Below are positions 12,509 through 14,337 of a DNA stretch of 64,000 nucleotides, in pieces. Position 1 is the first letter of the stretch. The number at the start of each line of letters is the position of its first letter. Below the pieces are notes generated by a model. That model did no database searches. It saw nothing but the letters and a program-made list of their open reading frames with translations, and was not told the origin of the DNA. The DNA lies in contig CAIKHO010000001.1 of NCBI GenBank assembly GCA_903827245.1, positions 1 through 64,000 on the forward strand. The letters are read 5' to 3'. A program made the position numbers and the translations under genes. This DNA comes from an uncultured Opitutia bacterium (GTDB taxonomy: Bacteria; Verrucomicrobiota; Verrucomicrobiia; Opitutales; Opitutaceae).

Positions 12509-12605
12509 GGCCAGGTGCCATGCATGGGCAGGCGCGTGAACCCCGCCAGGGCCGGAAGGCAGCAACGGTAACGACGTCCTACCAGTGCCGTGGAGTGCCT
12601 GGCCA
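12509..12605 (+). ncRNA. ffs: 4.5S / small signal recognition particle RNA
   Basis: The SRP domain IV core is unmistakable at 12545-12562 (CAGGGCCGGAAGGCAGCA), preceded by GTGAACCCCGC and followed by ACGGTAACGA. The ends pair: GGCCAGG at 12509-12515 with CCTGGCC at 12598-12604, closing a single long hairpin of about 97 bases. A T5 run follows immediately (12607-12611), consistent with termination. The RNA binds Ffh and guides membrane protein insertion. It sits between the ECF operon and dnaX, as often seen, since ffs lies near dnaX in many bacteria. Exact ends are estimated from the pairing. Confidence 0.93.
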
Positions 12606-12748
12606 CTTTTTGTTTCCGCGCCACGCGCGGAAAAAACCCGCCATAGGCCTGGCGACGGCGGGTATTTCGCCCCGTCCCTTTCTCGTAGCGCCGCCCCCGC
12701 CCCAAATTTCAGTTGCACCGCGCCCGTTCCGCTTTGCACTAGCGCGCA

Positions 12749-13903
12749 GTGTCTTCACCCGGTTACCAAGTCATCGCCCGCAAGTGGCGGCCCCAGACGT
12801 TTGACGACGTGGTCGGGCAGGACCACGTGGTACGGACGCTCCGGAACGCCATCGCGCGCGGCCGCATTGCCCACGCCTACCTGCTCGTCGGGCCGCGGGG
12901 CACGGGCAAGACCTCCACCGCCCGCATCTTTGCCAAGGCACTCAACTGCACCGGCGGCCCGAAGGCGGATTTCGATGTCAACGATCCCGCCTGCGTGGCG
13001 ATCGCCGACGGCTCCCATCTCGACGTGATCGAGATCGACGGTGCCTCGAACAATGGTGTCGACCAGGTACGAGACCTGCGCGACACCGCGCGCTACGCGC
13101 CCGCCCAGGGGAAGTTCAAGATCTACATCATCGACGAGGTGCACATGCTCTCGACCGCGGCGTTCAACGCGTTGCTCAAGACCCTCGAGGAGCCGCCGCC
13201 GCACGTGAAGTTCGTCTTTGCTACCACCGAGGTGCAAAAGGTGCTGCCGACCATCCTTTCGCGCTGCCAGCGTTTCGATCTCAAGCCGATTCCCGCCGAG
13301 CTCATCGTGGAGCGGCTGAAAAAAATCGCGCTGGCGGAGAAGATCAAGGTGACCGACGCGGCCCTGGCCTGCATTGCGCGCATGGCGGACGGCGGCATGC
13401 GCGACGCGCAGTCGATCTTCGACCAGATGATTTCATTCTGCGGCAACGAAATCGCCGAGCCGGATGTGCTCGACGTCTACGGGTTGGTCGCGGCGGCCAA
13501 GGTGGCGGAACTGGCGGCCGCCCTCGCCGCGGGGGACCACCGGAAGCTCGTGGCCATTGTCGACGAATGCGATGCCAACGGCCGGGACCTGGTGCGGTTG
13601 CTGGCCGACCTGCAGGCGCTGGTGCGCACCGTCCTGCTGGATGCGATCGCCCAGGGGGGCCGGAGCGAACAGCTCGGCAGCCCGCTGACCACCGAGCAGC
13701 TCACGCGCCTGCTCGACGGGCTGCGCGAGGGCGAGGGCGGGGTGAAGCTGGGGCTGGCGGAAAAAATCAATTTCGAGGTCACGCTCCTGAAGGCCGTGGA
13801 GGCGAGCCGGGCGCGGGCAATCGACAGCCTGATCAAGGAACTGGCCTCGCTGGCCGACGAGGCGCCCGCCGCGGGTGACGGCGGCGAAAAAAAAAAGGAC
13901 TGA
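12749..13903 (+). CDS. dnaX: DNA polymerase III subunit gamma/tau, zero-frame (gamma-like) product
   Basis: 384 residues. This is the clamp-loader ATPase: Walker A GPRGTGKT at residues 48-55, DEVH at 129-132, and a sensor/SRC segment [12 protein letters not shown]. Domain III follows and the frame ends just after it, as in the E. coli gamma form. The start is GTG at 12749 with the family's [19 protein letters not shown]. The usual four-cysteine zinc module is degenerate: only Cys67 and Cys82 remain between NCTGG and PACVAI. The frame ends in Glu-Lys-Lys-Lys-Asp-stop, encoded by a ten-A run, and the -1 frame stays open to 14337. A longer tau-like protein by frameshifting is therefore likely (see separate entries). 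Confidence 0.95.
13891..13897 (+). promoter_or_regulatory. Candidate programmed -1 frameshift site in dnaX
   Basis: The heptamer A AAA AAG is positioned exactly in the zero frame (codons 13889-13897), inside a ten-A run (13887-13896), six bases before the TGA at 13901. The same heptamer drives frameshifting in E. coli dnaX. A purine-rich GGGTGA (13873-13878) lies twelve bases upstream, where an internal Shine-Dalgarno stimulator would be. A small stem GGCGC/GCGCC (13917-13921 with 13928-13932) lies downstream. Transcriptional slippage on the A10 run, as described for Thermus dnaX, is an alternative mechanism. Confidence 0.65.
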
Positions 13904-14337
13904 TTGACCGTCTGGAGGCGCAACTGGGCGCCGCACTGGGCGCAGGGCCGGAAGCAGGCGCGGCCCGGCTGGGAAATGGGCTTTCGCCGGATGCGAACGA
14001 AGCCGTAGCAGCCGTCGCCGATCGTCGCGAGGAAGGCGCATCAGGTGAAAATGGTGCCGGGCGACCCGTGCTGCCGGAAAGCGAAAGCACCAACGTCTGG
14101 TCGGACGAGGCGGCGGAGGCCGCGTTTTTTGCCGACGCCCGCGCCGGTGGGGAATCCGGTCTGGCGCGGGGTGAAGTGGCAGCCGGTGACAGCGAGGACG
14201 CGGACAGCCGGGGGCTTCCTTCGCAGGCCGAGCTGACGAAGCGCATCACGCCCGAAGTGCGTGAAATGCTGGACGAATTATTTCGCGCGAAGTTCATCGC
14301 GGTGCGCCGCGTGCCCCGCAAGGCGCTCAAAGATTAA
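13897..14337 (+). CDS. dnaX: dnaX -1-frame C-terminal extension (tau-like tail)
   Basis: After a -1 slip on the A-run the reading frame continues without a stop for 146 residues to TAA at 14335-14337, giving a fusion of 529 residues. The first ~100 residues are Ala/Gly/Glu-rich and probably a flexible linker ([19 protein letters not shown] onward). The last ~35 form a charged helical block, [19 protein letters not shown] then [17 protein letters not shown], which looks like a folded binding segment. In E. coli the tau-only region contacts DnaB and the polymerase; this tail has no recognisable similarity to it. It has no convincing start of its own, which argues for expression as an extension. 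A sequencing indel would give the same picture. Confidence 0.7.

Follow-up and report, generated by a model that had tools for sequence, protein, structure and literature searches.

The window, a stretch of 64,000 nucleotides of DNA from an uncultured Opitutia bacterium (order Opitutales, family Opitutaceae), carries a dnaX gene on its forward strand (Table 1). The gene starts with a GTG codon at 12749, and a bacterial small SRP RNA is located directly 5´ of it (12509-12607). The zero-frame product matches the Pfam families DNA_pol3_delta2, DNAX_ATPase_lid and DNA_pol3_gamma3 and the NCBIfam family dnaX_nterm. Shortly after domain III, this frame closes with the codons GAA AAA AAA AAG GAC TGA (13886-13903), which contain a run of ten A's (A10) and the heptamer A_AAA_AAG in phase with the zero frame. 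An adjoining ORF under protein-level constraint occupies the -1 frame, with the A10 run at the junction, and reading from the zero frame into the -1 frame gives a product of 529 residues. A previous sequence-only reading of the same DNA had described a zero frame that ends at residue 384 after domain III, in agreement with the sequence and with the Pfam and NCBIfam matches. Its lengths of 146 residues for the open -1 frame and 529 residues for the long product are confirmed from the sequence; the TGA codon, which it placed six bases past the A-run, lies four bases past the end of the run. The proposal that one gene yields a 384-residue gamma-like and a 529-residue tau-like product, the latter requiring a shift of frame, is supported by the analysis below.

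Table 1. Features of the dnaX locus, in window coordinates.
Feature	Position	Strand	Basis or remark
dnaX zero-frame ORF, 384 aa gamma-like product	12749..13903	+	AAA+ domain, lid and domain III; Pfam, NCBIfam
A10 run, putative slippage site	13887..13896	+	only A10/T10 of the genome; at least nine A's in 87/93 order genomes
Zero-frame TGA stop, end of the short form	13901..13903	+	same-frame stop within a few codons across relatives
+1-frame TGA stop, predicted to end third-frame products	13905..13907	+	arises from an ATT codon in the tail
-1-frame tail of the predicted long tau-like form	13897..14337	+	146 codons (13897-14334) and TAA (14335-14337)
Conserved C-terminal tail segment, proposed polymerase-binding peptide	14233..14334	+	alignments; low-confidence model helices; binding inferred

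The aligned sequences indicate that the tail is protein-coding in the frame assigned to it and is under purifying selection. Across ten pairs aligned at the DNA level, mismatches in the tail number 297, 287 and 553 at the first, second and third codon positions, with 1335 sites each. dN is lower than dS in 11 of 17 pairs, which are all the pairs with a computable dS, the other six being saturated. The best conserved part of the tail in the alignments comprises its last 34 residues. Structure prediction for the tail has low confidence (mean pLDDT 63, pTM 0.21) and yields a mostly disordered chain, with a short helix just past the slip site and further short helices near the end. The tail of the window gene matches no Pfam or NCBIfam family, and no PDB chain was found at E<=1. 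The tau domain DnaX_C (PF20964) is recognized in none of the 87 order tails, compared with 21 of 55 relatives from the same class but outside the order (E<=0.1). These searches bear out the earlier remark that the tail resembles no known tau domain. Eight other families, with a best E of 0.01, each hit one or two tails and were taken as chance. The end of the tail resembles by eye the C-terminal segment of the class relatives (..NDPLIKKALEIFKG.IV.VR), but hhalign gives a probability of 5.3% (E 0.0073, 24 columns), which does not establish homology between the two. The C-terminal part of E. coli tau contacts the polymerase, according to the account consulted (PMC4703070), and the conserved C-terminal segment of the tail may have a comparable role.

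The relatives were searched in 95 genomes of the order and 141 genomes drawn from the class. The 93 readable order loci comprise 88 of the first 95 and five from the class draw. Seven genomes had no usable dnaX locus and were left out (G013, G032, G037, G061, G072, G076 and G093), as were L019, whose contig ends before the site and whose other half (L093) was counted, and L084. The latter is a second, partial dnaX copy in G034, an assembly listed with 7% contamination. The duplicates L174-L187 and the named records L094-L107 were also left out of the counts. In 87 of the 93 loci, a run of at least nine A's lies at the dnaX site, with A10 in 69, A9 in 15, A11 in two and A13 in one. The comparison among relatives proposed along with the initial reading finds the run, the stop and the tail conserved. 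In the genome of the window, which spans 3.55 Mb, A10/T10 occurs once, at dnaX, and A9/T9 in six other places (L288-L293); the dnaX run is therefore beyond chance, being the sole A10/T10 of the genome. The dnaX run is also the only A10/T10 in 26 of the 69 genomes with a dnaX run of at least ten (25 of 49 in the family).

Six of the 93 order genomes lack such a run. In L065 and L091, one ORF spans 455 and 468 codons, respectively; L068 has 475 codons and A6, and L088, L089 and L090 are short ORFs of 399, 367 and 390 codons without an A-run. The latter three belong to genomes of 0.9-1.3 Mb, and the tail profile recognizes no tail in their short dnaX genes. Within one family, L065 and L071 are sister loci. 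A long form in the +1 frame accompanies A10 in L071; L065 no longer has the A-run, is read through for 455 codons and contains a C7 run further down.

Homopolymers are error-prone, and the split might be explained by an indel introduced in sequencing or assembly, or by a broken gene. This explanation is given next to no weight, because the layout is common to 71 genomes and to the isolate Cephaloticoccus primus CAG34 (L101), and the tail is under purifying selection. L101 is one of eleven named records (L094-L104, all Opitutaceae or Opitutia), which all have A9 or A10 and a -1 tail; two further named records (L106 and L107) have A10 and a long form in frame 0. Judged by this comparison, an assembly error does not account for the dnaX split at the poly-A run.

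Among the 87 order loci with the run, the long form occupies different frames: -1 in 71, 0 in 12 and +1 in four. Within the family, 57 of 58 genes carry it in the -1 frame, and the remaining gene (L053) has A11 and a long form in frame 0. In the other families of the first draw (24 loci), it lies in frame 0 in 11, in -1 in nine and in +1 in four. The rows are related, and these gene counts are not counts of independent events. On a quick tree built from 366 N-terminal columns, the fewest frame switches number 10; 38 of the 99 inner branches of this tree are open, and with the starred branches alone, the forced changes number only 2 for the label -1, 3 for 0 and 2 for +1. Lineages thus differ in the frame of the long form but retain the A-run, a pattern that favors a stutter mechanism. 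A single continuous frame in relatives, which the sequence-only reading had named as an observation against recoding, is found in 12 of the 87 order loci, where the run is kept, and in 55 class relatives outside the order, where it is lacking.

Run length and frame are coupled within the family: genes with A10 are in phase 1, and genes with A9 are in phase 2, a TCA standing where the others have GAA or a similar codon, and the frame is thereby kept. The identity of the codon that opens the run (GAA or TCA) was not counted as evidence in its own right, as it follows from run length. This coupling bears on phase variation at the DNA level, by which mutation of the run length would switch cells between the short and the long form. 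Homopolymers are mutable and lengths from 9 to 13 are seen, but the changes of length in the family keep the frame (57 of 58 in -1), whereas random switching would mix the frames. We regard phase variation as highly improbable.

The two frames that do not lead to the long form are closed next to the run. Both stop within seven codons past the run in 78 of the 87 loci, in comparison with 5.6% of other positions in the same tails, a null that still took in L084. In 68 of 71 genes of the -1 type, the +1 frame closes within seven codons; elsewhere in the tails, this holds for 22.9% of positions. These fractions give a direction and not a probability, because related sequences are not independent draws. 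ATT, which creates the +1-frame stop, accounts for 32 of the 38 Ile codons at tail position 4, and domains I-III of the same genes prefer ATC (1025 ATC versus 326 ATT). Domains I-III of the 59 genes with A10 and a -1 long form also prefer AAG over AAA (584 versus 317).

The observations above bear directly on the mechanism suggested by the sequence-only reading, programmed -1 ribosomal frameshifting at A_AAA_AAG in the manner of E. coli dnaX but with the short form in the zero frame and the long form in the shifted one. The heptamer is in phase, 52 of the 59 genes with A10 and a -1 long form have a G directly after the run, and 57 of 58 family genes share the -1 direction; a uniform direction of shift was read as ribosomal in the published analysis of such genes (PMC3711429, main text). 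In a few bacteria, tau is seemingly the product of ribosomal frameshifting, as stated in the parts consulted of PMC5009743. Against such a shift, the run is kept at nine A's or more, and relatives with the run have the long form in frame 0 (12 of 87) or +1 (four of 87). A stop also closes the third frame in 68 of 71 genes of the -1 type, although a -1 shift never enters it. No upstream purine block or downstream structure is conserved, and a tRNA-Lys(CUU) is present. Both lysine tRNAs were found in the genome, UUU at L255 and CUU at L260, with 30 of 45 tRNA loci read; a second lysine tRNA has been linked with the use of slippage in Thermus, as set out in the consulted part of PMC5009743. We consider ribosomal frameshifting unlikely, the distribution of the long-form frame (71/12/4 for -1/0/+1), the closed third frame and the tRNA-Lys(CUU) all speaking against it.

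The stimulators assumed earlier, a GGGTGA upstream and a small GC stem downstream, are not conserved among the 59 relatives of this type. A column table of these genes, examined in place of a direct anti-SD scan, contains no conserved purine block that would correspond to a Shine-Dalgarno-like stimulator. Downstream RNA structure shows no excess, with a mean z of -0.53 compared with -0.42 in the upstream control and -0.15 in the tail control (59 genes). Between 12400 and 14700, no Rfam element was found except the SRP RNA. RNA-polymerase slippage and a measure of ribosomal -1 slippage could act together at the A-run, its letters serving either process, but no feature was found that the ribosomal part alone would need, and we consider this combination very improbable.

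Outside the order, 55 of 62 loci from the class form one ORF of at least 450 codons to the stop, and none of these 55 contains nine or more A's within 110 codons from residue 335. In the other classes of the phylum, sampled with 40 of 76 genomes, a run of at least nine A's occurs within 200 codons of residue 300 in 14 of 37 loci read to the stop; because the scanned stretches differ in length between the class and the other classes, the two fractions can be compared only loosely. The long form of these 14 loci lies in frame 0 in ten and in -1 in four (L320, L322, L326 and L328), and the other frames stop within 11 codons. The presence of the run in other classes and its lack in the 55 class loci imply that the sites arose several times or were partly lost in the class. 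The two-ORF A10 dnaX with a -1 long form in the four loci is perhaps of independent origin. In one family outside the class, two loci (L295 in G251 and L297 in G275) have two A9/A10 runs in succession, about 21-27 codons apart, each with close stops in both other frames. Viral relatives are represented by one locus.

On the comparative evidence, dnaX is very probably decoded by programmed transcriptional slippage at the A10 run. Slippage is favored because it accounts jointly for the length of the run, the closure of two frames and the variable direction, and the run is kept at nine A's or more, though A_AAA_AAG needs fewer. RNA polymerase would stutter on the ten A's and produce mRNAs with differing numbers of A's. 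Transcripts with 10 or 13 A's would stop at 13901 and encode the 384-residue gamma-like subunit, and those with 9 or 12 A's would terminate in the +1 frame at 13905, yielding an almost identical short protein. Transcripts with 11 (or 8, or 14) A's would enter the -1 frame and encode the long tau-like subunit, which in the case of 11 A's would have 529 residues and end in a flexible linker and the conserved C-terminal segment. The occurrence of slippage, its ratio and the presence of both subunits in one clamp loader are what we infer from the sequences. Several observations point the other way. The -1 direction is uniform in 57 of 58 family genes; A_AAA_AAG is present in phase; the tail profile gives weak hits or none for the tails of two of the four +1 genes (L081 and L082); and six order genomes lack the run. 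The profile was built from these same tails, and its matches to 81 of 95 are no independent proof.

Extended to the whole order, these data suggest a broader proposal, which we hold to be fairly likely. The essential dnaX would depend on RNA-polymerase stutter so steadily that the frame at the DNA level drifts almost freely, with the A-run and the stops of the losing frames kept and the tau frame changed at least several times. Tau would be cut to a linker and a short C-terminal segment that replaces the lost DnaX_C. The same run combined with different directions and a guarded frame forms a comparative test, independent of experiment, that separates transcriptional from ribosomal slippage. 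The order also offers a reservoir of genes with the gamma-to-tau switch in all three frames, in which it can be asked why gamma is kept. Automatic annotation will truncate tau or call dnaX broken in this order.

Our literature search, which lacked most subscription journals, found no paper on dnaX of this order, and the order-wide switching of the frame and the guarded third frame were not found in print. Opitutus and Coraliomargarita are both absent from the main text of the 2013 survey of two-ORF dnaX genes with recoding for tau (PMC3711429); its species list (Supplementary Figure S3) may include the family already.

Among the known systems, E. coli dnaX uses a ribosomal -1 shift at A_AAA_AAG, as described in the consulted parts of PMC5009743 and PMC3711429. 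The gene studied here shares the heptamer in phase and the pair of gamma and tau, and differs in the reversed frames, the unconserved stimulators, the longer A-run and the second lysine tRNA. Shigella mxiE, as outlined in the relevant part of PMC1088944, likewise needs slippage for a longer product from two ORFs, but that gene is unrelated and contains a U-run. Thermus thermophilus dnaX is decoded by transcriptional slippage on A9 (PMC1088944 and PMC5009743, in the parts consulted). It resembles the present gene in a run of at least nine A's, nearby stops in the two frames other than that of the long form, a single gene for gamma and tau, and two lysine tRNAs; in Thermus the template frame encodes tau, whereas here it encodes the short form. 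Orthologues that differ in the direction of shift, a feature of the Thermus type, are observed in the order (71/12/4), yet the family is uniform (57 of 58). The dnaX gene described here belongs to the two-ORF poly-A recoding kind published in 2013 (PMC3711429). The GeneTack dnaX cluster of Antonov et al. (2013), as presented in the main text, comprises 17 genes from 12 genera, all -1 and nine of them with A10, and slippage was proposed there by analogy with Thermus. In both sets, the zero frame ends after the short subunit and tau is assigned to -1 recoding; the cluster is -1 throughout, whereas a single order here combines the run with long forms in the -1, 0 and +1 frames.
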